Source of the DNA: Rhizobium sp. SSA_523
GTDB taxonomy: Bacteria > Pseudomonadota > Alphaproteobacteria > Rhizobiales > Rhizobiaceae
Assembly (NCBI RefSeq): GCF_030435705.1
Contig: NZ_CP129382.1
Location: 2,232,001-2,296,000, forward strand
Direction: 5' to 3'
DNA: 64,000 nucleotides
Below are positions 5,759 to 60,662 of the stretch, in pieces. Below the pieces are notes generated by a model. That model was not told the DNA's origin. It worked only from the letters and a program-made list of their open reading frames with translations, and ran no database searches. Positions within the stretch are counted from its first letter, which is position 1, and each line of letters begins with the position of its first letter. The position numbers were made by a program, and so were the translations under genes.

Positions 5759-6532
5759 CTAATGGACGGAGCTGATGAATTTTTTCAGCCGCTCCGATTG
5801 CGGGTCTTCGAAAATCGCTTCGGGCGGTCCCTGCTCTTCGATCACCCCGCCATGCAGATACACCACATGACTCGCCACCTTGCGGGCGAATTTCATCTCA
5901 TGCGTGACCAGGATCATGGTGCGCTTTTCCTGCGCCAGATCGCCGATGACGGTGAGAACCTCGCCGACGAGCTCGGGATCGAGCGCCGATGTCGGCTCGT
6001 CGAACAGCATGACCAGCGGCTGGATGGCCAGTGCGCGGGCAATCGCCGCCCGCTGCTGCTGGCCGCCGGAGAGGAAGGACGGATAGGCATCGCGCTTTTC
6101 ATGCAGGCCGACGCGGCGCAGAAGCGTCTCGGCCACCGCAATCGCCTGATCGCGCGGCTGGTCAAGGACATGGACCGGCACTTCGATGACATTCTGCAGC
6201 ACGGTCATGTGCTGCCAGAGGTTGAAACTCTGGAACACCATACCAAGCTTGGTGCGGATGCGCTGGATCTGCTTGCGATTGGCAGGCAGCAGGCCCCCAT
6301 GCTTGTCCGACTTCATCTGGATCGTCTCGCCATGCACGCTGATCGATCCGGATGTCGGCAGTTCCAGCATGTTGATACAGCGCAGGAAGGTGGACTTTCC
6401 CGATCCGCTGCCGCCGATGATGGCGATCACGTCGCCCTGGTTTGCCGTCAGCGATACACCTTTGAGAACCTCCAGCGGGCCAAACCGCTTGTGAAGATCC
6501 CGAACTTCGATGGCTTGCGCCTCTTCCGCCAT
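5759..6532 (-). CDS. Basic amino acid ABC transporter ATPase (HisP type)
   Basis: 257 residues, full-length polar amino acid transport ATPase. All nucleotide-binding motifs are intact: Walker A GGSGSGKST (about residue 39), Q-loop VFQSFNLW, signature LSGGQQQR, Walker B VMLFDEPTSALDPE and H-loop VTHEM. It is the first gene of the minus-strand importer operon and is divergent from the amidinohydrolase at 6714, with 181 bp between starts that must hold both promoters. It energises the two-permease channel at the cytoplasmic face. Confidence 0.93.
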   Translation of the reverse strand: MAEEAQAIEVRDLHKRFGPLEVLKGVSLTANQGDVIAIIGGSGSGKSTFLRCINMLELPTSGSISVHGETIQMKSDKHGGLLPANRKQIQRIRTKLGMVFQSFNLWQHMTVLQNVIEVPVHVLDQPRDQAIAVAETLLRRVGLHEKRDAYPSFLSGGQQQRAAIARALAIQPLVMLFDEPTSALDPELVGEVLTVIGDLAQEKRTMILVTHEMKFARKVASHVVYLHGGVIEEQGPPEAIFEDPQSERLKKFISSVH

Positions 6533-18620: not shown

Positions 18621-20525
18621 TCAATCGAGCAGGCTGCGAAGCTCCAGCGCCAGATCCCGCGCCGTGTAGGGCTTTTTCAGCCAGCGGCCATCCGCCGCCA
18701 GCTGCTTGCCGGCAACCTCCGGCTCGGCATAGCCCGAGGTGAAGAGGATCTTGATGTCGGGCCGGATGTCGCGAACGATCTTCGCCAGCTGGTCGCCGGA
18801 TAGTCCCGGCATGGAAATATCGGTGAAGAGCAGCGCGATCCCGGGATTGCGCTCCAGAACCCGAAGCGCTTCCTCGCCATTGGCAGCCTGGCACACGCTA
18901 TAGCCGAAGCTTTCCAGCCGCGCCACGGCAACCCGGCGCACGCGCGCATCGTCCTCCACGACGAGGATGGTTTCGTGCCCGCCCGGAAGCTCCGCCGCGC
19001 GCCGTCCCGGATCGTTGGGCAGCGCAGCCGTTCCGCCGCTCGCCGCCGGCAAAAAGAGGCGCACGCTGGTGCCCTGGCCGATCTCGCTGTAGATCTGGAT
19101 ATGACCGCCAGACTGCCTGACGAAACCATAGACCATGGACAGGCCGAGCCCGGTTCCGGAGCCCGCCGTCTTGGTGGTGAAGAAGGGCTCGAAAGCCCTG
19201 TTCTTCACCTCTTCCGTCATGCCGGTTCCGGTATCGGTCACCGCCACCAGGACATAATCGCCAGCGCGCAGTTGCGGATACATCTGCGCATAATCGAAAT
19301 CGAGATGCACCCGATTGACCTCAATCGTCAGAAGGCCGCCAGAGGGCATGGAATCGCGGGCATTGAGCGCCAGGTTCAGCAGGGCATTCTGCAATTGCGG
19401 CCCGTCCACCAGGGCTTCATTGCCGCCGCCGCGAATGGTGGTGCGCAAATCGACGCTATCGCCGATCGTGCGGCGGATAAGCTCCGAGAAACTCGAGACG
19501 AGTTGGCCAAGATCGATCAGGCGCGGATTGAGCGGCTGCCGCCGGCCGAAGGCCAGCAATTGTCCGGTCAGCTTCGCCCCGTCATCGGTGGCGCCCTGCG
19601 CCTCGTGCAAAAGGGTCAGCGCACGCGGATCGTCGAGCTTCATCTCGAGCATTTCGAGATTGCCGCTGATGACCGTCAGGAGATTGTTGAAATCATGGGC
19701 GAGCCCGCCGGTCAGCTGGCCGATCGCCTCCATTTTCTGGGCCTGGCGCAACTCCTCTTCGATCTTGTGACGGCTGGTGAGGTCGCGAATGAAGCCGGTG
19801 AAGATGCGCCGGCCATTGGATATGGCCTCGCCCACCGCCAGCTCCATCGGGAAGGTCGTGCCGTCCTTGCGCAATCCCTTCACCACGCGGCCGAGCCCGA
19901 TAATGCGCCGCTGGCCGCTGGTCAGGTAATTGACGATATAGCGATCATGGCTTTCGCGGTCCGGCGACGGCATCAGGATCCGGACATTCTCGCCCTCCAC
20001 CTCGTCCGCCTCATAGCCGAACAGATCCTCCGCCGTGGAGGAGAAGGAGGTGATCACCCCCACTTCGTCGATGACGACCATGGCCTCCGGCACCGTCTGC
20101 AGGATCGAGCGGAAATGCGCCTCGCGGGCCGAAAGGCTCTCCTGGATCGAGGCGGCGGAGCGAAAATCCTCGTTGAGCTGGATGACGACCGGCTGCCCGT
20201 CCACCTCGGAAAGCACCCAGCGGCTGAGGACGGTGATCGCGTGGCCGTCCTTGTGGCGATATTCGAGCGTGCTTTTCCAGGCGCCCCCGGTGCGGATATC
20301 GGCAATGATGGCCGCGATATCGAGGCTTGAACCGGGCTGCAGCAGCTCCATGACATGCAAGCCGACCACCTCATCGGGCGACCAGCCGAACAGTTCGGCA
20401 CTTCCGGCGCTCCAATGGCTGATGATGCCGTCTTCCCCATGCGCAACGACATTGATCGGGTCTAGAACGGCAACCAGACGTATCAGATCGTCTGCCTGCG
20501 TACGGAACTTTGCCGTTTCGTCCAT
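18621..20525 (-). CDS. Hybrid haem-PAS oxygen-sensor histidine kinase (hFixL type)
   Basis: 634 residues from ATG 20525, chosen because AAGAGGA lies eight bases upstream; a TTG at 20567 overlaps the fixK stop. Order: PAS-A (about 15-120), PAS-B (135-255), HisKA with phospho-acceptor His277 in GGLAHDFNNLL, HATPase (N box LNLALNARDSM, VTDTGTGM, FEPFFTTK, GTGLGLSMVYG), receiver with Asp569 in FTDISMPG. PAS-B matches the FixL haem pocket: His193 in RESHDRY aligns with the haem-binding His200 of Bradyrhizobium FixL and Arg213, twenty residues on, with Arg220. No membrane segments. It lies downstream of fixK, and the FxkR-like regulator is divergent. It should autophosphorylate when haem loses oxygen. 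Confidence 0.87.
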   Translation of the reverse strand: MDETAKFRTQADDLIRLVAVLDPINVVAHGEDGIISHWSAGSAELFGWSPDEVVGLHVMELLQPGSSLDIAAIIADIRTGGAWKSTLEYRHKDGHAITVLSRWVLSEVDGQPVVIQLNEDFRSAASIQESLSAREAHFRSILQTVPEAMVVIDEVGVITSFSSTAEDLFGYEADEVEGENVRILMPSPDRESHDRYIVNYLTSGQRRIIGLGRVVKGLRKDGTTFPMELAVGEAISNGRRIFTGFIRDLTSRHKIEEELRQAQKMEAIGQLTGGLAHDFNNLLTVISGNLEMLEMKLDDPRALTLLHEAQGATDDGAKLTGQLLAFGRRQPLNPRLIDLGQLVSSFSELIRRTIGDSVDLRTTIRGGGNEALVDGPQLQNALLNLALNARDSMPSGGLLTIEVNRVHLDFDYAQMYPQLRAGDYVLVAVTDTGTGMTEEVKNRAFEPFFTTKTAGSGTGLGLSMVYGFVRQSGGHIQIYSEIGQGTSVRLFLPAASGGTAALPNDPGRRAAELPGGHETILVVEDDARVRRVAVARLESFGYSVCQAANGEEALRVLERNPGIALLFTDISMPGLSGDQLAKIVRDIRPDIKILFTSGYAEPEVAGKQLAADGRWLKKPYTARDLALELRSLLD

Positions 20526-20563
20526 GCCTGTCCTCTTGCCGCCGCCATGGCGGATCTTCTGCG

Positions 20564-21316
20564 TCAATGCGGCCAGACGGCCTGTCTCGTCTTGGAGGTA
20601 CCGGCATCGGCACTGTCATAACTATCGCCATCGCCGCACAGAGCAAGTAGTTTTCCGGGCTTGGCGATATCAAAGGCGTGACGGCCATTGGGTGCGATCA
20701 CGCCGCGCGAAACAAGCTTGGTGATGGTGCGCGAGACGGTTTCGATGGTCAGGCCGAGATAGTCCGCCATATCCTGCCGGCTCATCGCCAGTTCGATCCT
20801 GCGGGAAAGCGCCTGATCGCCGTTCAGCCGGCGGGCGATCAGCAGCAGGAAGCTGCATACCCTTTCCTCGGCGCTCTTGCGTGACAAAAGCACCATCTGA
20901 TCCTGCGCTGCGGCCATTTCGTCGCAGATGAGAGCAAAGAGCTGCGGCCGAAGATCGGGCGAGGTTTCGATCGCTTCCTGGAAGACGCGCCGTGTCACCC
21001 GGCGGACCGTGACCGGCGTGACGGCCTCGGCGCTGTAGAGATAGACATCCTTCAGCGACAGGCCGACCATGTCGCCGGCATGGAGAAAGCCGGTGATGAC
21101 CCGGCGGCCATCCGATATGATCTTGAAAATCCTCAGGACGCCCTCGGCAATCTCGAACACGTGCTGGGCCCGATCGCCCTGCCAGAACAGGCCTTCCCCG
21201 ATATCCAGGCTCTCGCGCGGTACCGCAGCGAAAAGCTCGTCGAGCGTCGCCAGCGGCGGCTTCATCGATGCCATGGCAGCATAGGCGGAATGTGCGTTTG
21301 AACCGGTCGAAAGCAT
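20564..21316 (-). CDS. fixK: Crp/Fnr-family regulator, FixK type
   Basis: 250 residues from ATG 21316, which has AGAGGGA just upstream. Residues 40-150 are the cyclic-nucleotide-binding-like beta roll (WQGDRAQHVFEIAEGVLRIF, then GRRVITGFLHAGDMVGLS). The helix-turn-helix is MSRQDMADYLGLTIETVSR; E-x-x-S-R in its recognition helix predicts an FNR-type TTGAT-N4-ATCAA target. The four N-terminal cysteines of Fnr/FnrN are absent, so it does not sense oxygen itself, as in FixK. It precedes the hFixL gene with a 38-bp gap to the preferred kinase start, and a K-box-like element lies 84 bp upstream of its start. Confidence 0.87.
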   Translation of the reverse strand: MLSTGSNAHSAYAAMASMKPPLATLDELFAAVPRESLDIGEGLFWQGDRAQHVFEIAEGVLRIFKIISDGRRVITGFLHAGDMVGLSLKDVYLYSAEAVTPVTVRRVTRRVFQEAIETSPDLRPQLFALICDEMAAAQDQMVLLSRKSAEERVCSFLLLIARRLNGDQALSRRIELAMSRQDMADYLGLTIETVSRTITKLVSRGVIAPNGRHAFDIAKPGKLLALCGDGDSYDSADAGTSKTRQAVWPH

Positions 21317-21399
21317 GTGCGTCCCTCTGTCTTGCTGGGTCAACTATGCAGAGGGGCGGTGACAGAAGGATGCCGCGCGTGTTACGGATCGTGCGATCG

Positions 21400-23215: not shown

Positions 23216-23803
23216 ATGCTGCAGCAAGACCTCACAATCCTTGTCATCGATGAGAATGCCATCCGGTCGTCGATCATCGAGGAGGGTCTGCAGGAGGCAG
23301 GCCACCGAAACGTGACGGTCATTCACGAAGTTCAAGGCGTTGCGCGCATCATCGAGACCCTGCGGCCGGATGTGATCATCATCGATATCGAAAATCCCGA
23401 CCGCGACCAGATGGAGCACCTCTTCCAGCTGACCCGCACGGTGTCGCGGCCGATCGCCATGTTTGTCGACCGCTCCGATACGGCCTCCATCGAGGCGGCG
23501 GTGGAGGCCGGAGTGTCCGCCTATATTGTGGACGGGCTGAAAAAGGAGCGCGTCAAGCCCATTCTGGACATGGCCGTTTCCCGCTTCAACGCCTTCAGCC
23601 GGCTGCAACGCGAACTGGCCGAGGCGCGATCGGCCCTCGAAGAGCGCAAGATCATCGAGCGCGCCAAGGGCATTCTGATGAAGCTGCGCGGACTGTCCGA
23701 GGACGAGGCCTTCACGCTCTTGCGGCAGACGGCGATGAACGAAAAGAAGAAGATGTCGGAGATTGCGCAAAGCGTCGTCACTGCTGCAGGCCTGCTGACA
23801 TGA
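23216..23803 (+). CDS. nasT: ANTAR-domain antitermination regulator NasT
   Basis: 195 residues. Residues 6-120 form a receiver-like domain with Asp in DVIIIDIENPD; residues 130-190 form the RNA-binding ANTAR domain with LEERKIIERAKGILMKLRGLSEDEAFTLLR split across its helices (KIIERAKGILMK, SEDEAFTLLRQTAM). NasT binds paired hexaloop hairpins in leader RNA and prevents termination. Its stop overlaps the start of the NasS gene (ATGA), the order known for this regulatory pair, and such hairpins are present in front of nirB downstream. The ATG at 23216 has only a weak ribosome site. Confidence 0.92.
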   Translation: MLQQDLTILVIDENAIRSSIIEEGLQEAGHRNVTVIHEVQGVARIIETLRPDVIIIDIENPDRDQMEHLFQLTRTVSRPIAMFVDRSDTASIEAAVEAGVSAYIVDGLKKERVKPILDMAVSRFNAFSRLQRELAEARSALEERKIIERAKGILMKLRGLSEDEAFTLLRQTAMNEKKKMSEIAQSVVTAAGLLT

Positions 23804-25143
23804 TGACAGGGCAATCCAAACCGGCCGCCATGCAGAAGGGAGCGCCAGCCATGGCCAAGCAAACGCAGCAGAACCTCTCCGCACCCGCCCGAGTGCAGGG
23901 GCCGGAGCCCAAGATGTTGCGCGCCGGCTTCATTCCCCTGGTGGACGCGTCGATCCTGATTGCGGCGAAGGAATTCGGTTTTGCAGAGCGCGAAGGCCTG
24001 ACGCTCGACCTCGTCAGGGATGTCTCCTGGGCCAATGTGCGTGACCGCCTGGCCTTCCGCCAGTTCGACATCGCCCATATGCTCTCTCCCATGCCTGTCG
24101 CCTCGATGCTGGGCCTCGGCTCCAACCCCTCCCCCACGATCACCCCCTTTTCTCTGGGGCGCGGCGGCAATGCGATCACCCTCTCCACCCGCCTCTTTGC
24201 CCGCATGCAGGAGATCGCCGGACTGTCGGAAACAGGATCCGCGCTGGACAATGCGCTGGCCCTTTCCGCCCTCCTGAAGACCATGCGCCGACAGGGCGAG
24301 GCGCCACCGACCTTTGGAATGACCTATCCCTTCTCCTCGCATAATTATGAATTCCGCTACTGGCTGGCCGCCGGTGGCATCGACCCGGACAAGGATGTCA
24401 AGATGGTCGTGGTGCCACCGCCTTTGACCTCGGACGCGCTCGCGGCCGGCGCGATCGATGGTTTTTGCGTCGGCGCACCTTGGAACATGGTCGCCTCCGA
24501 GCGTGGCGTCGGCCGTATCGTGGCCGCAAAGCAGGATATCTGGCCGCTGGCGCCCGAAAAGGTGATCGGCATGCGCCCGGACTGGGCGCAGAACCATCAG
24601 GACACCGTTTCGCGCCTCATCGTGGCTCTGGATGCGGCTGCGCAATGGTGCGACCGGGCCGACAATCACGATGCGCTGGCCGATATTCTGGCAGCTCCCC
24701 ACTATATTGCCGCACCCAAGCAGATCATCCGCCATGTGCTGGCGGGCGAGTTCAGCCTCGATGCACGCGGCAATCGCCGGGTCATCGAGCGCTATTTCAC
24801 CTTCCATGACGGGAATGCCAATTACCCGCTGCCAAGCCAGGCCTTGTGGATCTTCAGCCAGATGATCCGCTGGGGACAGGCGGTCTACAGCAGAGAGGCC
24901 GCAGAGGCCGCCGCCGCCGCCTACCGGCCCGACCTTTACAGGATGGCCCTCGGCAAACCGCGTCCTTCCGCCGCTATGCCGGAGCCGAAGAGCTTCGCTC
25001 CGCACGGCACGACGGACGAAGATCGTTTCATGGACGGGATGATCTTCGACCCTTCCGACCTCGAGGCCTATGTCCGCCGCTTCCCCGTGAGAGCCTCCTT
25101 GCCCTCATCGTCCGCAAGAACCGCAACCTTGGACGAGAGCTGA
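23800..25143 (+). CDS. nasS: Nitrate/nitrite sensor NasS (NrtA-like cytoplasmic protein)
   Basis: 447 residues of the NrtA/CmpA periplasmic-binding fold: RAGFIPLVDASILIAAKEFGF, FRQFDIAHMLSPMPVAS, FGMTYPFSSHNYEFRYWLA, AGAIDGFCVGAPWN. Unlike transporter NrtA it has no signal peptide or lipobox; the first 35 residues are polar, so it should be cytoplasmic. With nasT upstream and overlapping, it is best read as NasS, which in other alphaproteobacteria and Azotobacter holds NasT inactive until nitrate or nitrite binds. It precedes the nirB leader by 325 bp including its promoter. No NrtB/C transporter genes are near. Confidence 0.88.
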   Translation: MMTGQSKPAAMQKGAPAMAKQTQQNLSAPARVQGPEPKMLRAGFIPLVDASILIAAKEFGFAEREGLTLDLVRDVSWANVRDRLAFRQFDIAHMLSPMPVASMLGLGSNPSPTITPFSLGRGGNAITLSTRLFARMQEIAGLSETGSALDNALALSALLKTMRRQGEAPPTFGMTYPFSSHNYEFRYWLAAGGIDPDKDVKMVVVPPPLTSDALAAGAIDGFCVGAPWNMVASERGVGRIVAAKQDIWPLAPEKVIGMRPDWAQNHQDTVSRLIVALDAAAQWCDRADNHDALADILAAPHYIAAPKQIIRHVLAGEFSLDARGNRRVIERYFTFHDGNANYPLPSQALWIFSQMIRWGQAVYSREAAEAAAAAYRPDLYRMALGKPRPSAAMPEPKSFAPHGTTDEDRFMDGMIFDPSDLEAYVRRFPVRASLPSSSARTATLDES

Positions 25144-25281
25144 CGGATCTCAGAAGCCGCTTAAATTTGCGGCATTGCCTAATAAACAGCAGGCTTTGCC
25201 GACTGCGGCTCGTTCCCGGTTGATCGCAAGTCCTCATAAGAAGACCAACTAAACCAATGAATTAGACAAATTTCGCGCAGT

Positions 25282-25296
25282 TGGCACGCGGCTTGC
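25282..25296 (+). promoter_or_regulatory. Sigma-54 promoter of the nirB operon
   Basis: TGGCACG-N4-TTGC fits the -24/-12 consensus fully (TGGCAC at 25282-25287, TTGC at 25293-25296, A after it). Expected start of transcription is near 25308, leaving a leader of about 160 nt before nirB. The upstream AT-rich stretch 25215-25280 would be where an NtrC-type enhancer-binding protein acts. The element implies nitrogen-limitation control through RpoN and NtrC. Confidence 0.88.
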
Positions 25297-25308
25297 AGTA
25301 CCTTTGTA

Positions 25309-25382
25309 GCGCGGTCAACGGCGACCAGCGCATGAACAAGCGCCGCGCTGGCGCTTTCCCGACAGACACCGACGTCGCAGGG
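25309..25382 (+). ncRNA. NasT (ANTAR) target leader with two hexaloop hairpins
   Basis: Hairpin P1 (25309-25331) pairs GCGCGGTC with GACC-A-GCGC and has loop AACGGC. Hairpin P2 (25358-25382) has GAC/GTC around loop ACCGAC, with outer CCC/GGG pairs across an internal loop. Both loops have A at position 1 and G at position 4, the ANTAR-protein recognition rule as I know it. P1 starts one or two nucleotides after the predicted sigma-54 start. P1 competes with other stems: CCAGCGC/GCGCTGG (25325-25351) and, exclusive with that one, AAGCGCC/GGCGCTT (25338-25356). A terminator follows at 25406. P2 is weak on its own, so this is a model, not proof. Confidence 0.7.
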
Positions 25383-25405
25383 TTTTCGTGGATGGACTTC
25401 TGGTC

Positions 25406-25432
25406 CGCCCGGATGCTCTCGCGGCGTTTTTT
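25406..25432 (+). terminator. Intrinsic terminator in the nirB leader
   Basis: CGCCCGG pairs with TCGCGGCG (one bulged C) around loop ATGCTC, followed directly by six T residues at 25427-25432. It lies 37 bp before the nirB start, so it would abort the operon unless antitermination occurs. This is the expected substrate for NasT action. Confidence 0.75.
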
Positions 25433-25468
25433 CGTTTTGGCTTCCGTTACAGCTAAGGGAAACCGCAC

Positions 25469-27931
25469 ATGGTTGAGACTATCGGCCCGGAACGGCTGGT
25501 CATCATCGGCAACGGCATGGCGCCGGGCCGCATGCTCGAACATATTTTCGAACAGGCGCCTGGGCGCTTCGCGGTCACGATCTTCAACGCCGAACCCCGC
25601 GTGAATTATGACCGCATCATGCTTTCACCCGTGCTGGCAGGTGAAAAGACCTATGAAGACATCATCATCCATGGTGATGCCTGGTATCAGCAGCACGGCG
25701 TCACGCTGCATCGCGGAGAGAAGGTCGTCGCCATCGACCGCGCCCGGCAAATCGTAACCTCGCAGTCGGGCCGCAGTGTCGCCTATGACCGGCTTGTCAT
25801 TGCCACCGGCTCCGCCCCCTTCATCATTCCGGTTCCGGGTCATGATCTGCCGGGCGTGGTGGCCTATCGCGATCTCGACGATGTGGATGTCATGCTCTCT
25901 GCCGCCCGCAAGGGGGGCGAGGCCATTGTCATCGGCGGCGGCCTCCTGGGACTCGAAGCTGCAGCAGGGCTCAAGGCACAGGGCATGAGCGTGACGGTGC
26001 TGCATGTGATGCCGAGCCTGATGGAGCGGCAGCTTGATGCCGCTGCCGGCTATCTTCTGCAAAAGGCGCTGGAGGATCGCGGCATCACGGTGATCTGCAA
26101 GGCAAATACGAAGGCAATCCTTGGCACGGACCAGGTGGAGGCCGTCGCTCTGGAGGATGGCCGCATCATTCCGGCTTCGCTCGTCGTCATGGCCGTCGGC
26201 ATACGCCCGCATGTCCAGCTGGCGCGGGATGCGGGCCTGGCGGTCAATCGCGGCATCGTCGTCGATGACGGCATGTCGACATCGGATGGGCGGATTCTGG
26301 CGATCGGCGAATGCGCCGAAGTCGGCGGGCAGGTCTATGGCCTGGTGGCGCCGCTCTATGAAATGGCCCGCATTGCCGCCTCGCATCTGCTTGGCGACGC
26401 GTCCCCGGCCTTTGTTCATGCCGACACGCCGACCAAGCTGAAGGTCACCGGCATCAATCTCTACTCGCTTGGAGATTTTGCCGAGGGGCCCGACCGCGAG
26501 GAGATCGTCCTGCGCGATGCGACGGCCGGCATCTACAAACGGGTGGTGATCAAGGACAACCGGATCATCGGCACCGTGCTCTACGGCGAAACCGCGGATG
26601 GTGCCTGGTTCAACGATCTGAAGAAGAAGGCCACCGACATTTCGGCGATGCGCGACACGCTGATCTTCGGCCAGTCCCATCAGGGCGGGGCGGTGCTGGA
26701 TCCGATGGCGGCCGTTGCAGCCTTGCCCGAAGACGCCGAGATCTGCGGCTGCAACGGCATCTGCAAAGGCAAGATCACCTCGACGATCACCGCCAAGGGG
26801 CTGACCTCGCTGGACGAGGTGCGGGCTCATACAAAGGCGTCCGCCTCGTGCGGTTCCTGCACCGGCCTGGTGGAACAGCTGATGACTCTGACGCTCGGCG
26901 ACAGCTACAATCCGGCGGCCGTCACGCCCATGTGTCCCTGCACGGAATTCGGCCATGACGATGTACGCCGCCTGATCAAGGCCAAGGGCCTGAAGAGCAT
27001 TCCGGCCGTCATGCAGGAGCTGGAATGGAAGACCTCCTGCGGCTGTGCCAAATGCCGACCGGCGCTCAATTACTATTTGGTCTGCGACTGGCCGGATGAA
27101 TATGCGGATGATTATCAGTCCCGCTACATCAACGAGCGCGTCCACGCCAATATCCAGAAGGACGGCACCTATTCCGTCGTGCCACGCATGTGGGGCGGGG
27201 TGACCTCTGCGCAGGAGCTGCGCGCCATTGCCGATGTCGTCGACAAGTTCCAGATCCCCATGGTCAAATGCACCGGCGGCCAGCGCATCGACATGCTGGG
27301 CGTGAAGAAGGAAGACCTTCCCGCGGTCTGGGCCGATCTCGGCAAAGCGGGTTTTGTCTCCGGCCAGGCCTATGCAAAAGGTCTGCGGACGGTGAAGACC
27401 TGCGTCGGCTCGGACTGGTGCCGCTTCGGCACGCAGGATTCCACCGGGCTCGGCATCCGCATCGAGAAATTCATGTGGGGCTCGTGGACGCCGGCCAAGC
27501 TGAAACTTGCGGTTTCCGGCTGTCCGCGCAATTGCGCGGAGGCCACCTGCAAGGATATCGGCGTCATCTGCGTCGATTCCGGCTTCGAAATCCATTTCGC
27601 CGGCGCCGCCGGGCTCGACATCAAGGGAACCGATGTTCTTGGCCTGGTGAAAACCGAGGACGAGGCGCTCGAAGCCATCGTCGCCCTCACCCAGATGTAT
27701 CGCGAGCAGGCCCGCTATCTCGAACGCATCTACAAATGGGCCAAGCGTGTCGGCCATGACGAAATCCGCCGCCAGATCCTCGCGGATGGCGAGCGCCGAA
27801 AGGCCTATTTCGACCGCTTCGTGTTCAGCCAGAAATTCGCCCAGGTCGATCCCTGGTCGGAGCGTGTGTCCGGCAAGGACAAGCACGAGTTCAAGCCCAT
27901 GGCACGACTGATGCAGGAGGCCGCCGAATGA
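25469..27931 (+). CDS. nirB: Assimilatory NAD(P)H nitrite reductase, large subunit
   Basis: 820 residues; reduces nitrite to ammonium in the cytoplasm with electrons from NAD(P)H. Order: FAD/NAD(P)H oxidoreductase domain (1-310, IIGNGMAPGRMLEHIF, IGGGLLGLEAAAGLK), two BFD-like [2Fe-2S] modules (CGCNGIC to CGSC near 425-470; CPCTEF to CGCAKC near 490-535), then the siroheme/[4Fe-4S] domain with CVGSDWC and CPRNC. All cluster cysteines are present. ATG 25469 follows AAGGGA. It overlaps nirD by 4 bp. Transcription from the sigma-54 promoter and control by NasT through the leader are inferred. Confidence 0.95.
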   Translation: MVETIGPERLVIIGNGMAPGRMLEHIFEQAPGRFAVTIFNAEPRVNYDRIMLSPVLAGEKTYEDIIIHGDAWYQQHGVTLHRGEKVVAIDRARQIVTSQSGRSVAYDRLVIATGSAPFIIPVPGHDLPGVVAYRDLDDVDVMLSAARKGGEAIVIGGGLLGLEAAAGLKAQGMSVTVLHVMPSLMERQLDAAAGYLLQKALEDRGITVICKANTKAILGTDQVEAVALEDGRIIPASLVVMAVGIRPHVQLARDAGLAVNRGIVVDDGMSTSDGRILAIGECAEVGGQVYGLVAPLYEMARIAASHLLGDASPAFVHADTPTKLKVTGINLYSLGDFAEGPDREEIVLRDATAGIYKRVVIKDNRIIGTVLYGETADGAWFNDLKKKATDISAMRDTLIFGQSHQGGAVLDPMAAVAALPEDAEICGCNGICKGKITSTITAKGLTSLDEVRAHTKASASCGSCTGLVEQLMTLTLGDSYNPAAVTPMCPCTEFGHDDVRRLIKAKGLKSIPAVMQELEWKTSCGCAKCRPALNYYLVCDWPDEYADDYQSRYINERVHANIQKDGTYSVVPRMWGGVTSAQELRAIADVVDKFQIPMVKCTGGQRIDMLGVKKEDLPAVWADLGKAGFVSGQAYAKGLRTVKTCVGSDWCRFGTQDSTGLGIRIEKFMWGSWTPAKLKLAVSGCPRNCAEATCKDIGVICVDSGFEIHFAGAAGLDIKGTDVLGLVKTEDEALEAIVALTQMYREQARYLERIYKWAKRVGHDEIRRQILADGERRKAYFDRFVFSQKFAQVDPWSERVSGKDKHEFKPMARLMQEAAE

Positions 27932-28254
27932 ACCAGATCTCGCGCAACTGGGTCGTCATCGGCTCCCTCAACGACATTCCCCGCCAGGGCGCCCGGTGTG
28001 TCGAAAACGGAGCCATGACCATTGCCGTCTTCCGCACCCATGACGACCGGATCTTCGCCATCGAGGACAAATGCCCGCATCGCAACGGTCCGCTGTCCCA
28101 GGGGATCGTTCATGGCGACTGCGTCACCTGCCCGCTGCACAACATGGTTATCCATCTGGCCACGGGCCGGGCGCAGGGCGCCGATGAGGGCGAGACCGTA
28201 ACCTTCCCGGTCAGACTGGAGGGCGACATCATTCACCTGGGGATCGATTTCTGA
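27928..28254 (+). CDS. nirD: Nitrite reductase small subunit (Rieske-type)
   Basis: 108 residues, the normal size of NirD. A Rieske fold is visible, and here the iron-ligand pairs CPH and CPLH are both intact, unlike enterobacterial NirD where they are lost, so a [2Fe-2S] cluster is likely. Start ATG overlaps the nirB stop (ATGA), pointing to translational coupling with its partner subunit. It is followed by a 92-bp gap to the channel gene. Confidence 0.93.
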   Translation: MNQISRNWVVIGSLNDIPRQGARCVENGAMTIAVFRTHDDRIFAIEDKCPHRNGPLSQGIVHGDCVTCPLHNMVIHLATGRAQGADEGETVTFPVRLEGDIIHLGIDF

Positions 28255-28346
28255 TCGCCGACGCCTGAGGGAGAAGCCGCTCCGGATCAATGAGGGCGGT
28301 CGAAAGCAGCAAAACCCACATCCATCCAGAATAGGGGATATTGAGA

Positions 28347-29189
28347 ATGGCCTATCTAGCTCCGCAAGAATTCGCCACCAAGATGATCGATGCCGGCGAA
28401 TCCAAGCTCTTCATGTCCACCAAGGACACTCTGATCCGCTCCTACATGGCCGGCGCCATCCTGGCGCTGGCGGCGGCCTTCGCCGTCACCGTGACGGTCA
28501 ATACCGGACAGCCGCTGATCGGCGCGCTGCTCTTTCCTGTCGGCTTCTGCATGCTCTATCTGCTGGGCTTCGACCTTCTCACCGGCGTCTTCACTCTGGT
28601 CCCGCTTGCGCTGATCGACAAACGCCCTGGCGCGACCATGTCCGGCATGCTGCGCAATTGGGGACTGGTGTTCCTCGGCAATTTCGCCGGCGCGCTGACG
28701 ACCGCCGTCTTCATGGCCGTCATCTTCACCATGGGCTTCACCGAAGCGCCCAATGCCATCGGCCAGAAGATCGGCACGATCGGCGAAAGCCGGACGCTCG
28801 GCTATGCCGCAGCCGGCTTCGGCGGCATGCTGACGCTCTTCGTCCGCGCCGTCATGTGCAACTGGATGGTGTCCACCGGCGTGGTGGCAGCGATGATGTC
28901 AACCTCGGTTTCCGGCAAGGTCATCGCGATGTGGATGCCGATCCTCATCTTCTTCTACATGGGCTTTGAACATTCCATCGTGAACATGTTCCTTTTCCCC
29001 TCCGGCATCATGCTCGGCGGCCAGTTCACCTGGACGGATTATTTCCTCTGGAACGAGATCCCGACGGTTCTGGGCAATCTCGTCGGCGGCCTGACCTTTG
29101 TCGGCCTGACCCTCTACACGACCCATGCGAAGACCAATGCCAAGAAACGGTCCTCGGACGCCAAGCTGATGTCCGTCGCTGCCGAATGA
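28347..29189 (+). CDS. Formate/nitrite transporter family channel (NirC-like)
   Basis: 280 residues with six membrane spans, the FNT pentameric channel size. Recognisable parts are TGVFTLVPLALIDKR, NFAGALTTAVFMAV, VRAVMCNWMVSTGVVAAMM (the CNW-type loop) and GFEHSIVNMFLFPSGIMLG. I take ATG 28347, behind AGGGGAT, over a TTG two codons earlier. Location directly after nirBD makes nitrite import (or export of excess) the likely role, replacing the NrtABC or NarK transporters usual in such clusters. Formate transport cannot be excluded from sequence alone. Confidence 0.87.
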   Translation: MAYLAPQEFATKMIDAGESKLFMSTKDTLIRSYMAGAILALAAAFAVTVTVNTGQPLIGALLFPVGFCMLYLLGFDLLTGVFTLVPLALIDKRPGATMSGMLRNWGLVFLGNFAGALTTAVFMAVIFTMGFTEAPNAIGQKIGTIGESRTLGYAAAGFGGMLTLFVRAVMCNWMVSTGVVAAMMSTSVSGKVIAMWMPILIFFYMGFEHSIVNMFLFPSGIMLGGQFTWTDYFLWNEIPTVLGNLVGGLTFVGLTLYTTHAKTNAKKRSSDAKLMSVAAE

Positions 29190-29195
29190 TCCGCA

Positions 29196-29224
29196 AGGAT
29201 CCCGCCGCCGGGCGGCGGGATCCT
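29196..29224 (+). other. Strong hairpin after the nitrite channel gene
   Basis: A perfect 12-bp stem, AGGATCCCGCCG with CGGCGGGATCCT, closes a 5-nt loop seven bases after the stop codon. It is followed by TCCCCTTG with no real T-run. It may attenuate expression of the kinase-phosphatase, cyanase and siroheme genes relative to nirBD, or protect the upstream message. It lies before the preferred GTG start of the next gene. Confidence 0.65.
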
Positions 29225-29254
29225 CCCCTTGCCAAGAGATCGAGGTCATCTGCC

Positions 29255-31072
29255 GTGATCGCCCATGCCGAGAGATTTGCGCCAGCGCAAGGCGATCATC
29301 GCCTGATCCGTCATGGCCCGCCTGCCGCCTCCGGCCTCGACCAGACCCGGCTGGACATCAGCCTGGGACAATATTCCAGCCGCGGAAACAAGCCGGAAAA
29401 TCGGGATTTCTACGGCGCGATCCTGCCTGAGGACCGTGTCCGTGCGTCAAAGGGCATTGCGCTTGTCGTGGCCGACGGCATTTCCTCCAGCGAGGTCAGC
29501 GGCGTGGCGGCGCAGACGGCGGTCAAGAGCTTCCTGTCCGATTACTACTGCACCGCCGATAGCTGGAGCGTCGACAAAGCGGCCCGACGGGTGATTGCCG
29601 CCGTCAATGCATGGCTGCACGCCGAGACGCGCCGGGGCGGCATGATCGCCGACCGCGACCGAGGCTATGTCTGCACCTTTTCCGCCCTGATCCTGCGCTC
29701 GCGCACCGCGCATGTCTTCCATGTCGGAGACAGCAGCATCCTGCACCTGTCCAAAGGCGCTCTCGAACCGCTGACCGATCCGCACCGCATCCGCCTGTCG
29801 GCCGGAAAGACTTGCCTTGCCAGGGCGCTCGGCATGAATGACGGCGTCGATGTCGATTACCGTCAGCGTCCGGTTGCACTCGGCGACATCTTCATCCTGG
29901 CGACCGATGGCGTCAGCGATGTTCTGGATCATCAAGACATTCTGAGCCTCCTCCAGCCGGGCTGCGATCTCGATCTCGCAGCCAGGGCGCTTTCCGAGAA
30001 GGCGCTTCAGAAGGGTAGCGACGACAATCTGACGGTTCAGCTGGCGCGCATCGAGGCTCTCCCGTCGCCCGATGGGGAGGAAGCGCTTGGCGAGCCTGGC
30101 CTGCCTCCCCTGCCCGCCATCCCCGAACCGGGCGGACAGCTGGACGGGTTTGCGATCATCCGCCGTCTGCATGCCAGCGACCGCAGCCATGTCTTCGAGG
30201 CGCGCGACCTGGAGACCGGCGAGCGCGTCGCATTGAAGGTTCCGGCGGTCTCGGTGCGGGAGGATGGCGTCTTCCTTCGTCGGTTCCTGATGGAGGAGTG
30301 GATTGCCCGCCGGCTCGACAACCCGCATCTCCTGCGCCCGGCCGGCACCGGCCGTCCGCACCGTGCCCTTTACACGACCATGCAATGGATCGAGGGCGAA
30401 AGCCTTGCGGCCTGGATGCGGGACAATCCGCGCCCATCCTTGTCGGCCGTGCGCCGCATCATCAGCCAGGCCGGCCAGGGATTGCTGGCCATGCACCGGC
30501 GCGGAATGCTGCATCAGGACCTGCGTCCGGACAATATCCTGATCGACCGGAGCGGTCATGTGACGATCATCGATTTCGGCTCCGCCTGGATCACCGGAGG
30601 CGGCGAGCTCTTCGATCTTGTCGAAGACCGCCTGCCCGGCACGCAAGCGTTCATGGCGCCGGAATACAGTCTGGGAGACAATGCCACAGAGCGCGCCGAT
30701 CTGTATGCGCTGGCGACGATTGCCTACCAGATGCTGTCGGGCCGGCTGCCTTACGGCACCGCAATGGCGCAGGCGCGAACCCGAGCCGGGCAGCGCAGGC
30801 TTGCCTATGATCCGGTCTGCGACAGCAAGAGCGAGATCCCGCTTTACGTCGATGCCGCCCTGCGCAAGGCGCTTCACTACGATCCGCAGCGGCGCCAGAG
30901 CGATATCGGCGAGTTCCTCGCCGATCTTCACCGGCCCAACCCGTCCCTTCCGGGCCTGCGCCAGACAGCGCTGATCGAACGCGACCCCGCCATCTTCTGG
31001 AAGGGCGTCAGCCTGTTTCTCGCCATCCTCCTGCTCGGCCTTCTCGGCTGGGTCTCTCTCCACCACACGTGA
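29255..31072 (+). CDS. PP2C phosphatase-Ser/Thr kinase fusion with C-terminal membrane anchor
   Basis: 605 residues from GTG 29255 (GAGG nine bases upstream); the open frame from 29186 would start inside the hairpin. Residues 35-275 are a PP2C phosphatase: ENRDF, VVADGIS, HVGDSSILHL, LATDGVSD and GSDDNLTVQ keep the metal-binding aspartates. Residues 290-555 are a Hanks-type kinase: VALKV lysine, HQDLRPDN catalytic loop, IDFGSAW and MAPE are present, but the glycine-rich loop is HASDRSHVF with no glycines and HRD is HQD. One transmembrane helix ends the protein (GVSLFLAILLLGLLGWVSL), so the enzyme faces the cytoplasm. A similar kinase gene sits by nirB/nasA in Pseudomonas aeruginosa. Targets unknown. 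Confidence 0.87.
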   Translation: MIAHAERFAPAQGDHRLIRHGPPAASGLDQTRLDISLGQYSSRGNKPENRDFYGAILPEDRVRASKGIALVVADGISSSEVSGVAAQTAVKSFLSDYYCTADSWSVDKAARRVIAAVNAWLHAETRRGGMIADRDRGYVCTFSALILRSRTAHVFHVGDSSILHLSKGALEPLTDPHRIRLSAGKTCLARALGMNDGVDVDYRQRPVALGDIFILATDGVSDVLDHQDILSLLQPGCDLDLAARALSEKALQKGSDDNLTVQLARIEALPSPDGEEALGEPGLPPLPAIPEPGGQLDGFAIIRRLHASDRSHVFEARDLETGERVALKVPAVSVREDGVFLRRFLMEEWIARRLDNPHLLRPAGTGRPHRALYTTMQWIEGESLAAWMRDNPRPSLSAVRRIISQAGQGLLAMHRRGMLHQDLRPDNILIDRSGHVTIIDFGSAWITGGGELFDLVEDRLPGTQAFMAPEYSLGDNATERADLYALATIAYQMLSGRLPYGTAMAQARTRAGQRRLAYDPVCDSKSEIPLYVDAALRKALHYDPQRRQSDIGEFLADLHRPNPSLPGLRQTALIERDPAIFWKGVSLFLAILLLGLLGWVSLHHT

Positions 31073-31090
31073 ACGCAAGAAAGGCAAGCC

Positions 31091-31534
31091 ATGTTCAGCA
31101 AACGCGACGTTACCGAGATGATCTATGAAAAGAAGCGGGCCGCAGGTCTGACCTGGGCATCGATCGCCGACGGGATCGGCATGAGCGAAGTCTTCGTGAC
31201 CTCTGCCTGCCTTGGCATGAATTCGCTGCCGCGCGACAAGGCGGACCTGCTGGTGACCCATCTCGGCCTTCCGCAGGAGGCCGCCGTCGTGCTGGCGGAA
31301 TATCCCACCAAGATGTTCGAGCAGGCGGTGCCGACCGATCCCTGCATCTATCGCTTCTATGAGATCATTGGCGTCTACGGCCAGACGCTGAAGGAACTCA
31401 TCCAGGAAAAGGGCGGCAACGGGATCATGAGCGCCATCGATTTCGACATGAGCGTCGAGAAGGTTCCCTATGCCAAGGGCGACCGTATCGAGATCCGCAT
31501 GAGCGGCAAGTTCCTGTCCTATAATGCCTGGTAA
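31091..31534 (+). CDS. cynS: Cyanase (cyanate hydratase)
   Basis: 147 residues, within the normal range. Converts cyanate and bicarbonate to ammonium and CO2. The N-terminal helical bundle (MIYEKKRAAGLTWASIADGI) and C-terminal catalytic part (YRFYEIIGVYGQTLKEL, GIMSAIDFDM) are intact; Arg and Glu in YRFYE and the Ser in MSAIDF are the three catalytic residues. It lies 18 bp behind the kinase-phosphatase gene with AAAGGCAAGCC upstream, and is followed by a strong terminator, so it closes the nirB operon. Confidence 0.95.
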   Translation: MFSKRDVTEMIYEKKRAAGLTWASIADGIGMSEVFVTSACLGMNSLPRDKADLLVTHLGLPQEAAVVLAEYPTKMFEQAVPTDPCIYRFYEIIGVYGQTLKELIQEKGGNGIMSAIDFDMSVEKVPYAKGDRIEIRMSGKFLSYNAW

Positions 31535-31579
31535 AGGACCGGGCGACGGCCGGGCGGAGATCACCAGCGGTGAAAAACG

Positions 31580-31611
31580 GCCGGTCGGACGGCCAACGAC
31601 CGGCATTTTTT
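31580..31611 (+). terminator. Rho-independent terminator after cynS
   Basis: GCCGGTCG pairs with CGACCGGC around a 9-nt loop, followed by ATTTTTT. The stem is preceded by AAAAA, so it may work partly in the other direction. It ends the nirB-cynS unit 45 bp past the cynS stop; read-through could still supply the siroheme gene. Confidence 0.88.
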
Positions 31612-31769
31612 AAAAAGCAGCGGCTTTGCGCAGGTTTATTTCTTGCCGAAAGCCCGTCGAAGATGGCACGCAACGCATTGGTTTCTGTGACCCGAACGCC
31701 GAGCCCCGACTGAGCGGGATCACGACGGCAGGGACCAGACCCTTGCACAAGACCAAGGACAACGACCCG

Positions 31770-33311
31770 ATGGATGCCTTGCACACAATCGACACGGAAG
31801 CGCGCCGCGCGGCACCGGCCCGCATGGAGCCTCTGGCGAAACTGCCGGTCTTCTTTGGCCTGGATGGCAAGCGCGTCGTCGTGGCCGGAGGCTCCGATGG
31901 CGCCGCCTGGAAGGCTGAACTTCTGGTTGCCTGCGGTGCGCGCGTCGATCTCGTCTGCCCCGAGGAGGAACTTGGCGATGTGATGCGCGGCGCGATCGCG
32001 AACCATCCCGCATCCGGTGACGCCGCCGGCATTCGCCACCTCGACCATCCCTGGCATCTGGGGATCTTCGCCGGCGCGGCAATCGCGCTTTGCGATTGTG
32101 AAACGGATGAGGAAGCCAAGGCCTTCTACTGCGCGGCAAAGGCGGCAGGCGTGCCCGTTAACGTGATCGACAAGCCGGCTTTCTGCGAGTTCCAGTTCGG
32201 CTCGATCGTCAACCGGTCGCCGGTCATCATCTCCATCTCCACCGACGGTGCAGCGCCGATCCTGGCTCAGGCGATCCGGCGCCGGATCGAAACTCTTCTG
32301 CCGCCGACCCTCAAGGCCTGGGCGAGCATCGCCCAGAGCGTGCGCGCGGCAATCAATTCTCGCCTGAAGCCCGGCAGTCAACGCCGCAGCTTCTGGGAAG
32401 GTTTTGTCGACCGCGTCTTCCGCGACATCCCGGGACCGTCGACGCCCGCCGATCTCATCGACGTGGCGGACGAGATCGCCTCGGCCGGCGCCCACCAGCG
32501 TTACATGGCCGCGCCGGACAGGACCCCTGCCGGCCGCGTGACGCTGGTGGGCGCCGGACCGGGAGATGCCGAGCTTCTGACCCTGAAGGCCGTTCGCGCG
32601 CTGCAGGCGGCCGATGTGATCCTGTTCGACGATCTGGTTTCGGATGACGTGCTGGAACTCGCCCGGCGAGAGGCGAGGCGCATGCTGGTCGGCAAGCGCG
32701 GCGGGCGGGAAAGCTGCAAACAGGAAGATATCAATGCCACGATGATCGCGCTCGCCAAGGCGGGCAAGCGCGTCGTGCGGCTGAAATCCGGCGATCCGAT
32801 GATCTTCGGGCGGGCCGGCGAAGAGATCGAATGTCTGGAGCGCCAGGGCATCCCCGTCGATATCGTACCGGGCGTGACGGCAGCGACGGCCATGGCCGCG
32901 CGGCTCGGCGTATCGCTGACGCATCGCGATCATGCCCAGTCCGTGCGTTTCGTGACCGGCCATTCCCGCAAGGGCGAACTGCCGACGACACTGAACTGGC
33001 AGCAGCTCGCCGATCCGAGCGTCAGCACGGTCTTCTACATGGGAGGCCGGACTGCAGGCGCGATCACGCAGCACCTGACGGAAAACGGCATGGACCCCCT
33101 CACCCCGGCCGTGATCGTCAGTGCAATTGCCCGGCAGGACGAGCGCCGCTGGGCGGGGCCGCTCCACCAGATGCCGACGGCCATGGCAGAGATCGGTTAC
33201 GACAATCCGGTGCTGATCGCGATCGGCGATGCTTTCATCAAGGCGCAACGGCATGGCCTTGGCAATGTCAGCGATGGAGACGAGCGTAGGGTAAACAGCG
33301 CAAGCGGCTGA
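31770..33311 (+). CDS. cysG: Siroheme synthase (fused dehydrogenase/ferrochelatase and uroporphyrinogen methyltransferase)
   Basis: 513 residues from ATG 31770 (AAGGA upstream); the frame is open from 31626. N-terminal 1-210: NAD-binding precorrin-2 dehydrogenase/ferrochelatase, with GKRVVVAGGSDGAAWKAELL and FGSIVNRSPVIISISTDG. C-terminal 250-495: SAM-dependent methyltransferase, with TLVGAGPGDAELLTLKAVRAL, VRLKSGDPMIFGRAGEE and VTAATAMAARLGVSLTHRD (given in part). It makes the siroheme needed by NirB, explaining its position 236 bp after cynS behind a terminator, probably with its own promoter. It converges on malQ with only 9 bp between stops. Confidence 0.92.
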   Translation: MDALHTIDTEARRAAPARMEPLAKLPVFFGLDGKRVVVAGGSDGAAWKAELLVACGARVDLVCPEEELGDVMRGAIANHPASGDAAGIRHLDHPWHLGIFAGAAIALCDCETDEEAKAFYCAAKAAGVPVNVIDKPAFCEFQFGSIVNRSPVIISISTDGAAPILAQAIRRRIETLLPPTLKAWASIAQSVRAAINSRLKPGSQRRSFWEGFVDRVFRDIPGPSTPADLIDVADEIASAGAHQRYMAAPDRTPAGRVTLVGAGPGDAELLTLKAVRALQAADVILFDDLVSDDVLELARREARRMLVGKRGGRESCKQEDINATMIALAKAGKRVVRLKSGDPMIFGRAGEEIECLERQGIPVDIVPGVTAATAMAARLGVSLTHRDHAQSVRFVTGHSRKGELPTTLNWQQLADPSVSTVFYMGGRTAGAITQHLTENGMDPLTPAVIVSAIARQDERRWAGPLHQMPTAMAEIGYDNPVLIAIGDAFIKAQRHGLGNVSDGDERRVNSASG

Positions 33312-59288: not shown

Positions 59289-60662
59289 TCAGGACAGGCT
59301 TTCCCGCCAGGCTCTTGCATAGGCGCCCAGGCTGTCGCCGTCGAACCGGCTCATGATCTCACGAGACTTAGCCGATTGGCGGGCGCCCGCCAGGAGCCCG
59401 GCCCCTTGTGCGGTGCCGGTCGAGCCCGAAACGGCAAGAACGGGTCGCCCGAGGAGCGCCTGAAGGCTTTCCAGATAGGCGGCATTCGATGCGAAGGGCC
59501 CCTCCACCAGGACCGGCCCCCTGGCGCCGATCAGCCCGAGGCATGTCTCGGTCATCAATGCCAGATAAAGGCAGGCCGCCGCCCACCGTTCTGCCTCCGA
59601 TGCGCCCTTGGCATTGATCCAGCGGCTTTCGAGACCAGGATAGGGGCCGGATCCGGAGGAGAGGTTGGGAGTGAGCAGGAGCTGCCTTTCCAAAACCGAA
59701 GGCAGGGCAGCCAGCACGCCCTCCCCATCCGGCGGACCGATCCTTTCGACCAGCAGCTCGAATTCGCGCCCGCCCATGAAGCGCGACGAGGGCACGGCGC
59801 GGCCATAGGCATCGACATTGGCCAGCGTGTCCCGTGCCGGATCCAGATGCGCGAGATCGCCACCGACGGCAAAATTGATGACCCAGGTTCCGGTCGAAAC
59901 CACCGCAAAGGGCGCCGCGCGATCGACCAGGTGCGGGAGGAGCGAGGCATTGGAATCGTGAATGCCGCAATAGACCGGCACTTCACGTGTCAGATGCAGC
60001 GCGGCGGAAAGCTCCGGCCGAACGGGGCCCAGCGCTTCGAAGGCGGAGCGGACCGGCGCCATCTTGTCGCGGATATCCAGACGATCGACGAGTGAGGAGA
60101 AGCTCGCCTCGCCGGGCCGCCACAGATCCGTGTGACAGCCAAGTGATGTCGCCTCGTTCGCGGCAATGCCGGTCAGCCGGTAAGCCCAATATTGCGGATA
60201 GGTGACAATCCTGTGCACCCTTGCGAAGTCATCCGGAAAAGTAGTTTTCTGGAAATGGATCTGGGCGCCAAGATTGAGGCCGCCGGACAGGGCCGGGGAA
60301 TAGGTTTCCGAAAAGGGCGGACGCAAGGCGGCATAGGCATCGCGGATCGGCTGCGGATATTCGTATTCGTAATCCAGCACCGGCAAAGCCAGCGCGCCGG
60401 CCGCATCCAGAAGCACGCCCGATGCACCATGGGCGGTGATGGAAATGGCATCGTATCCGGGCGTCACGGCGAGTTCGCCAAGCGCCTCCAGAAAAAAACG
60501 CCAGAGCCCCTCGATGTCGTAATGCGGATAGGGCTGGGCGGCGATCACCTTGTTCGGCCGGCGCCGGACGTCCAGCTCCCTGCCGCTTTCACAGTCAAGC
60601 ACCAGCACCTTGGCATTGGTCTTGCCGATATCGAGAACGGCAATGCGGTGCACTGATGTCAT
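59289..60662 (-). CDS. rhaK: Rhamnose kinase of the FGGY family
   Basis: 457 residues from ATG 60662, which overlaps the rhaU stop (ATGA). FGGY/actin-like ATPase fold: [18 protein letters not shown] at the phosphate loop, [30 protein letters not shown] (catalytic Asp region), [15 protein letters not shown] and the C-terminal [17 protein letters not shown]. Gene order rhaTPQUK is the one described for Rhizobium leguminosarum, where RhaK is also needed for transporter activity. Last gene of the operon. Confidence 0.9.

Follow-up and report, generated by a model that had tools for sequence, protein, structure and literature searches.

The DNA analysed here, called the window throughout, is a 64,000-nucleotide (nt) stretch of Rhizobium sp. 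SSA_523, in which positions are numbered from the first letter. The element in question is the leader of nirB, the gene for the large subunit of nitrite reductase. The leader is preceded by genes for NasT, a regulator with an ANTAR RNA-binding domain, and for a NasS-like protein, and is followed by nirB, nirD and a transporter gene. It contains a sigma-54 promoter, three hairpins and an intrinsic terminator. The features, all on the plus strand, are as follows:

23216..23803, +: nasT, receiver plus ANTAR RNA-binding regulator, 195 amino acids (Pfam PF03861 76.5 bits, PF00072 40.9 bits, both over cut-off)
23800..25143, +: nasS-like gene, NMT1_2 substrate-binding protein, 447 amino acids (Pfam PF13379, 248.6 bits)
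25155..25171, +: weak NtrC-like dyad AGCCGCTTAAATTTGCG, no more than a candidate enhancer, 127 bases upstream of the promoter T
25282..25297, +: sigma-54 promoter TGGCAC-N5-TTGCA, from the sequence; GG at 25283/25284, GC at 25295/25296, predicted +1 at about 25308
25309..25331, +: P1, proximal ANTAR hairpin, GCGCGGUC[AACGGC]GACC-a-GCGC, one bulged A; hexaloop 25317-25322, pair probabilities 0.975-0.982
25338..25356, +: middle hairpin AAGCGCC-GCGCU-GGCGCUU in the P1-P2 linker, from comparative evidence
25358..25382, +: P2, antiterminator hairpin, CCC-GACA-GAC[ACCGAC]GUC-GCA-GGG; hexaloop 25368-25373, inner stem 25365-25367 with 25374-25376
25371..25432, +: intrinsic terminator, stem 25371-25383 with 25415-25428 plus inner pairs, U6 at 25427-25432; base-pair probabilities 0.79-1.0
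25469..27931, +: nirB, nitrite reductase large subunit, first gene after the leader (TIGR02374, 876 bits)
27928..28254, +: nirD, nitrite reductase small subunit (TIGR02378, 91.3 bits)
28341..29189, +: formate/nitrite transporter family protein (PF01226, 215.6 bits)

The best reading of the leader, and in our estimation a highly probable one, is that it joins two inputs: sigma-54 initiation and NasT-type two-hairpin antitermination. An earlier note on this DNA had proposed that RpoN and NasST control are combined here, and the proposal is supported by the spacing between promoter and P1, the covariation of P1 and the overlap of P2 with the terminator. The leader has a defined anatomy, is conserved, holds two structures that exclude each other by base pairing and stands at a fixed distance from its promoter. 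That note also placed nasT just upstream; nasT does lie upstream, with the nasS-like gene in between. The NasS-like protein is presumed to be the nitrate/nitrite sensor that holds NasT, by analogy with Paracoccus denitrificans NasS as described in the accessible part of PMC3795266.

The sigma-54 promoter and the P1 hairpin

A full-consensus -24/-12 element with a start near 25308 had been predicted, and the GG and GC dinucleotides and the consensus flanks are present in the sequence; the predicted start lies 12 bases after the C of the -12 element. The consensus by itself is not significant, because the strict form TGGCAC-N5-TTGCW occurs at three sites in the whole genome versus six for a reversed-pattern control. 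What is significant is its fixed position before P1. Further strict TGGCAY-N5-YTGC sites lie in the window at 60611 (plus strand), 58326 and 1520 (both minus strand).

The fixed position is seen with R1, a covariance model of 44 related leaders, the window among them, that has no promoter in it. A second model, R2, comprises 41 sequences without the window, L014 and L027. In the 5.5-Mb genome to which the window belongs, R2 scores the window at 55.4 bits (E 1.9e-10) and the next match at 23.3 bits, and R1 scores the window at 58.7 bits; the E-values of both models are rough. Outside the window 49 R1 loci were fetched, of which 11 are training sequences and two are duplicates, leaving 36, mostly from the same genus or family. 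In 33 of these the motif TGGCAY-N5-YTGC stands at -36 (30 loci) or -35 (3 loci) from the first hexaloop base. The exceptions are L139 with a near-consensus site, L140 with none and L148, a chance match. Outside the family, the strict site accompanies 7 of 9 convincing non-training leaders. As the spacing is fixed, P1 is the predicted RNA 5' end in R1-type leaders. Farther upstream, NtrC-like dyads (GCM-N9-KGC, the best among 27 tested combinations of pattern and spacing) occur in 57 of 74 distinct upstream regions versus 8.9 in mononucleotide shuffles (maximum 17).

The first hairpin had been placed at 25309-25331, with loop AACGGC and beginning right at the predicted +1, and this is borne out by sequence, fold and covariation. 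Its stem of 8 base pairs (bp) plus a bulge falls within the ANTAR motif, which consists of a hexaloop on at least 3 bp. Both hexaloops of the window follow the A1/G4 rule of ANTAR proteins (A at position 1, G at position 4), as the earlier note had it, and so do those of 53 of 53 collected leaders. Hexaloops of this kind are common when taken alone: 88 and 90 with 4-bp stems are found on the two strands of the window.

Selection of the 53 leaders followed a pattern: a promoter-like site, an AnnGG[CT] loop flanked by three or more out of four pairs, and GACGTCG downstream. This pattern included A1/G4 of P1 and G4 of P2, and did not include A1 of P2. The inner P1 pairs, A1/G4 of P1 and the G4-A5-C6-GUC of P2 are not free evidence, because the pattern required them; free evidence comes from the five outer P1 pairs, the middle hairpin and the 5' GAC and A1 of P2. 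Across the 52 distinct rows of these leaders, P1 pairs are formed in 91.1% of cells. Two-sided changes occur in six of nine P1 pairs, and five of these six are outer pairs that had no part in the choice of rows. At one pair, 28 rows have G-U, 15 have G-C and 9 have A-U, and this frequency of G-U points to RNA rather than to a DNA operator.

P2, the terminator and the middle hairpin

The second hairpin, predicted at 25358-25382 with loop ACCGAC, is present in the sequence. The terminator that follows was described as running from 25406 to 25432. Its T6 is where it was said to be and ends 36 bases before the ATG of nirB, with AAGGG at 25455-25459 in between; its extent had to be revised, as the stem reaches back to 25371 and overlaps P2. 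The stem 25371-25428 spans 58 nt at -32.3 kcal/mol, versus -8.6 for the distal hairpin 25405-25428. The 5' arm of the long stem, GACGUCGCAGGG, includes the closing GUC of P2, which means that the 5' arm of the terminator is the 3' arm of P2. The two structures are mutually exclusive because they share this GUC, and the overlap is what would make the switch work. An overlap of P2 with the terminator has a precedent in published ANTAR antitermination, as described in the available portions of PMC3369931 and PMC3369936.

Folding from +1 to the U-tract yields P1, the middle hairpin and the long terminator 25371-25428. Pairing between the linker and the P1 3' arm, seen in another fold, disappeared when the fold ended at the U-tract, and was dropped. 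Terminator and P1 occur together in the single minimum-energy folds of all 53 leaders, terminator pairs are formed in 97.3% of cells of their alignment, and the same helix was recovered unprompted by RNAalifold. In transcripts cut 12 nt after P2, P2 is part of the minimum-energy fold of 38 of the 53 leaders. The GAC/GUC of P2 is identical in all of them; the 5' GAC and the loop A1 are invariant though unselected, and the GUC side was selected. Covariation had been asked of both hexaloop stems. It is found in P1, and P2 shows no variation from which it could be read.

The linker between 25331 and 25365 is 33 nt long in the window and holds a third hairpin that is absent from the earlier note. 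For this reason the hexaloops lie not about 20 but 45-56 nt apart: the distance is 51 nt in the window, 45-56 nt in the 53 leaders, where it is mostly 46-48, and 43-53 nt in 11 leaders outside the family. In the 53-leader alignment, the pairs of the middle hairpin are present in 80.7% of cells, with 26 two-sided changes versus 10.9 in shuffles, which leave relatedness in place; two of the five measures in this test are unexceptional, being reached by 111 and 57 of 500 shuffles. Mononucleotide shuffles give z below -1 for 51 of 53 linkers. Dinucleotide shuffles, for which the stretch also included a few bases of the P1 arm, give p of 0.04 or less in 7 of the 11 leaders outside the family.

Families f11, f34 and f41 have the middle hairpin too, with stems of different sequence. 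At the same place stand GCGGGAUU/AAUCCCGC in L140, CCGCUUCU/AGAAGCGG in L146 and ACCUC/GAGGU in L147. The case for this hairpin is thus comparative, as its stability in the window alone is not exceptional and unrelated stems occupy the same place. In Enterococcus faecalis, according to the part of PMC3369931 available, induction fell drastically when a linker was shortened to 3 nt or lengthened to 14 nt. With such limits, it would make sense for a long linker to be bridged by a hairpin. No description of a middle hairpin in ANTAR leaders was found in the literature searched, which is weak evidence, as most subscription papers lay outside the search. The linker of 22 of the 53 leaders also contains a closed ATG mini open reading frame (e.g. 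L015, 247-320), of four codons in 16 of the 22 and mostly of the form ATG-AGC-GCx-xxx-stop.

Distribution, related leader types and operon context

The R1 leader is found in 47 of 57 genus genomes at E 0.01 or better, with one (G040) weak. Across 397 genomes of the order, searched at 0.001, it is found in 20, eight from the same family and 12 outside it. Dropping G142, whose match (L148) looks coding by eye and has no sigma-54 site in place, leaves 11 outside leaders, in families f11 (8), f34 (1) and f41 (2). Among 289 genomes of the class, R1 returned the genome of the window plus one weak match (L183), which was set aside as chance on the same grounds. The searches of order and class used stricter filters, so that weak members may be missed.

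At nirB loci from 80 named genomes, with at most 3.5 kb upstream covered, R1 matches 61. Eighteen of the 19 unmatched loci were inspected, L033 being left out as it ends early. In 13 a strict sigma-54 site is followed by another ANTAR-like leader, which is of a second type in 12 and the hybrid L032 in one; no strict site was found in the other five (L013, L039, L051, L074, L087). The second type (L041, L047, L052, L059-L062, L073, L075, L078, L088, L089) lies about 1.4-1.5 kb upstream of nirB. Its order is a sigma-54 site, a small GGCC hairpin, a hairpin like GGCGUCC[AACGAC]GGGCGCC and then one like CAGC[AAAGCC]GCUG, with the hexaloops 19 nt apart and P1 not at the predicted RNA 5' end. In 9 of the 12 the listed stem of the last hairpin has 4 bp or more, and by eye its arm can pair with the terminator. 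At L041 this leader is followed by an MFS protein that is NarK-like below cut-off. In hybrid leaders (L017, L022, L030, L031, L040, L042, L043, L055, L056, L067, L080, L090, and also L149, L150 and L032), a window-type P1 and middle hairpin precede a second-type module; the first P2 is degraded and P1 is kept. A single NasT serving both leader types in one genome would have to read both spacings.

An Rfam scan of the leader gave no match at gathering score. Once the limits are relaxed, the leader can be aligned along the full length of RF03032, the narK model; the 25.6 bits obtained (E 0.0052 for 321 bases) fall short of the gathering score, 43.2. No RF03032 match exceeds the cut-off in 57 genus genomes (best 42.2), 297 order genomes or 385 class genomes. 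A second match in the same genome as the window (24.4 bits) falls within a long coding frame and was discarded as chance, as were, by eye, order-level matches such as L118, L120, L121 and L126. The RF03032 consensus starts with GGCAC...UUGC, which reads as a sigma-54 -24/-12 element, followed by an AACGGC hairpin (window 25283-25346 aligned). Its 3' end reads CGAC-AAAGAC-GUCG, a P2-like hexaloop hairpin that is left unpaired in the Rfam model. The Rfam narK RNA looks like promoter DNA plus an ANTAR element. It has a short linker without a middle hairpin, unlike the leader of the window.

In most loci examined, the leader stands where a transporter gene comes first; in the window it precedes nirB. 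It is about 3.2 kb upstream of nirB in 41 of the 61 loci, and in five that were checked the next protein is an NMT1_2 substrate-binding, NrtA-like protein, followed in L012 by permease- and ATPase-like frames (by eye). In 16 loci it is about 1.4-1.6 kb upstream. Of three checked, L055 and L042 are followed by an MFS protein, and L042 and L067 match the NarK-family model below cut-off. In L025 and L063 the leader precedes a formate/nitrite transporter, and in L082 (Sinorhizobium fredii) and L084 (Ensifer sp.) it lies directly before nirB, as in the window. On plasmid pRL10 of R. johnstonii 3841 (L184, locus 6001-6111), it precedes a gene set annotated as CmpA/NrtA, nitrate permease and ATPase, and no nirB is present in the 12 kb shown around it.

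The operon of the window (25469-33311) looks adapted to nitrite. Downstream of nirBD it encodes the formate/nitrite transporter, a PP2C phosphatase-Ser/Thr kinase fusion (29186-31072), a cyanase (31091-31534) and also a siroheme synthase. The NrtA-like protein of L012 has a sole match in the genome of the window, NasS itself. As nitrate-reductase query we used the molybdopterin oxidoreductase behind nirBD in L012, whose matches to NasC, NasA and formate dehydrogenase models all stay under the cut-off. It has no close match in the genome of the window, where identities are 28-36% only; of the four matches there, two are by model a formate dehydrogenase and NapA, the latter on another contig (C2). 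NirBD, the formate/nitrite transporter and siroheme synthase, together with the lack of an NrtA or close reductase match, give the operon the look of nitrite assimilation. NasS-NasT of P. denitrificans is described as responding to nitrite too in the part of PMC3795266 available. Near the nas genes, the minus strand also encodes a PAS hybrid histidine kinase resembling FixL/CckA (18621-20567) and a FixK/FnrL-like regulator (20564-21343).

Proposed mechanism, alternatives and known systems

Under nitrogen limitation, sigma-54 RNA polymerase, presumably activated by NtrC, would start at about 25308 and produce P1, the middle hairpin and P2 in this order. Without nitrate or nitrite, NasS would hold NasT, the terminator would form and transcription would stop at U6. 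With nitrate or nitrite, NasT would be released and its ANTAR domains would hold the hexaloops of P1 and P2. P2 would then keep the GUC out of the terminator, whose stem would lose its base beside the U-tract, and nirBD and the genes behind would be transcribed. By folding, the middle hairpin probably takes up some 20 of the approximately 50 nt that separate the loops, which would let one NasT dimer reach both.

Several points weigh against this two-input reading. The selection patterns of the 53 leaders already required a promoter-like site, the AnnGG[CT] loop and GACGTCG. P2 is weak, with three inner pairs and a probability of 0.001 in the full-leader ensemble, and forcing P1, the middle hairpin and P2 together costs 8.6 kcal/mol (-49.0 vs -57.6), so that a protein or kinetics must favour the P2 state. 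P2 is also invariant in the 53 leaders; because it never varies, covariation gives no means of telling a hairpin apart from selection acting on the arm of the terminator. By dinucleotide shuffles, the middle hairpin of the window is unexceptional (z -0.3, p 0.38), p reaches 0.05 or less in 5 of 28 genus leaders, and it is 0.165-0.325 in 4 of the 11 leaders outside the family, three of which share one linker. The window linker of 33 nt stands against the 14-nt linker that drastically reduced induction in E. faecalis (PMC3369931, in the part available). Furthermore, 19 of the 80 nirB loci have no R1 match within the upstream stretch covered, the NtrC-like dyad of the window itself is within chance, the enrichment holding for the group, and L140 (family f34), convincing as a leader, has no sigma-54 site where one is usual. 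L140 is a candidate for an RNA switch under another promoter.

The invariance and weakness of P2 would also suit an alternative in which P1 and the terminator do all the work. NasT would bind P1, GACGUCGC would owe its conservation wholly to its role as terminator 5' arm, and P2 and the middle hairpin would be incidental. P2 is missing from the truncated-transcript minimum-energy fold in 15 of the 53 leaders. In P. denitrificans, moreover, induction was abolished by mutating hairpin I and, in nitrate, hardly affected by mutating hairpin II, according to the accessible part of PMC5424462. We consider this alternative unlikely, as the 5' GAC and A1 of P2 are invariant in all 53 leaders, were not selected and lie outside the terminator stem 25371-25428. 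The terminator arm does not explain their conservation because neither belongs to that stem.

It is very improbable that P1 is instead a DNA operator overlapping +1, or a part of the promoter, with the leader being no antitermination element. The nearly fixed distance between promoter and P1 is what a DNA site might show; the G-U and mixed pair types of the P1 stem, the overlap of terminator and P2 in all 53 leaders, the adjacent ANTAR gene and the L140 leader without the sigma-54 promoter all speak against it. Attenuation through a translated leader peptide in the linker has hardly any likelihood, as the 22 leaders with a mini open reading frame, 16 of them of four codons, are set against 31, the window included, that have none, and an ANTAR protein gene is adjacent.

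The two-input reading can be extended to the related leaders, tentatively and with slightly less than even confidence. The leaders would form a three-hairpin ANTAR class of the Hyphomicrobiales, in which the middle hairpin is a required geometric element that joins hexaloops 45-56 nt apart for NasT, with narK-type leaders of related genomes keeping canonical close loops. The sigma-54/P1 module would be fixed, with P1 always at the RNA 5' end, and would have moved among nrtABC, narK-type, nitrite-transporter and nirB operons; Rfam narK would be the promoter plus the ANTAR element. Within one bacterial family, the loop spacings of 19 nt in narK-type leaders and of 45-56 nt in leaders with a bridging hairpin, both presumably read by NasT, offer a natural experiment on how an ANTAR dimer reaches two loops. 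P1 fixed at +1 would make a compact element that merges nitrogen limitation with nitrate/nitrite. This element would also explain why the first bases of Rfam narK resemble promoter DNA and not RNA.

Control by sigma-54 and NtrC together with ANTAR antitermination is known from Klebsiella nasF, and NasT-mediated antitermination of nitrate assimilation reportedly acts at the nasAB leader of Azotobacter vinelandii. The leader of the window is like the ANTAR dual-hairpin antiterminators (EutV with eut, NasR with nasF, AmiR with amiE) in its two A1/G4 hexaloop hairpins, in the overlap of the distal P2 arm with the terminator and in the ANTAR gene nearby. It is best described as a variant of these, for which NasT binding and readthrough are predicted from sequence. 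The E. faecalis eut linkers measure 5-12 nt in the part of PMC3369931 available, against 33 nt in the window with a conserved hairpin and loops 51 nt apart. This long linker marks a variant and not an exclusion, because close spacing was shown to be required for EutV, yet is not part of the published motif, whose linker is variable.

The nasA leader of P. denitrificans, where NasT antitermination has experimental support, is alike in having nasTS directly upstream and in being a non-coding leader of about 200 bp with hairpins, to which NasT binds as RNA and in which hairpin I is needed (PMC3795266 and PMC5424462, available portions). There the first structural gene is nasA, versus nirB in the window, and the two leaders are likened by description, not by sequence. 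NasT-interaction hairpins are also reported for the nirA and narK leaders of Bradyrhizobium diazoefficiens in the accessible part of PMC6759348. Sigma-54 promoters in Pseudomonadota are, by prediction, enriched ahead of genes for nitrate transport and nitrite reductase (PMC12316311, as far as its text was available). The mechanism is thus known in kind. What is new, as far as could be seen, is the conserved arrangement of three hairpins, the module of promoter and P1 at a fixed distance, and what the Rfam narK RNA is likely to be.

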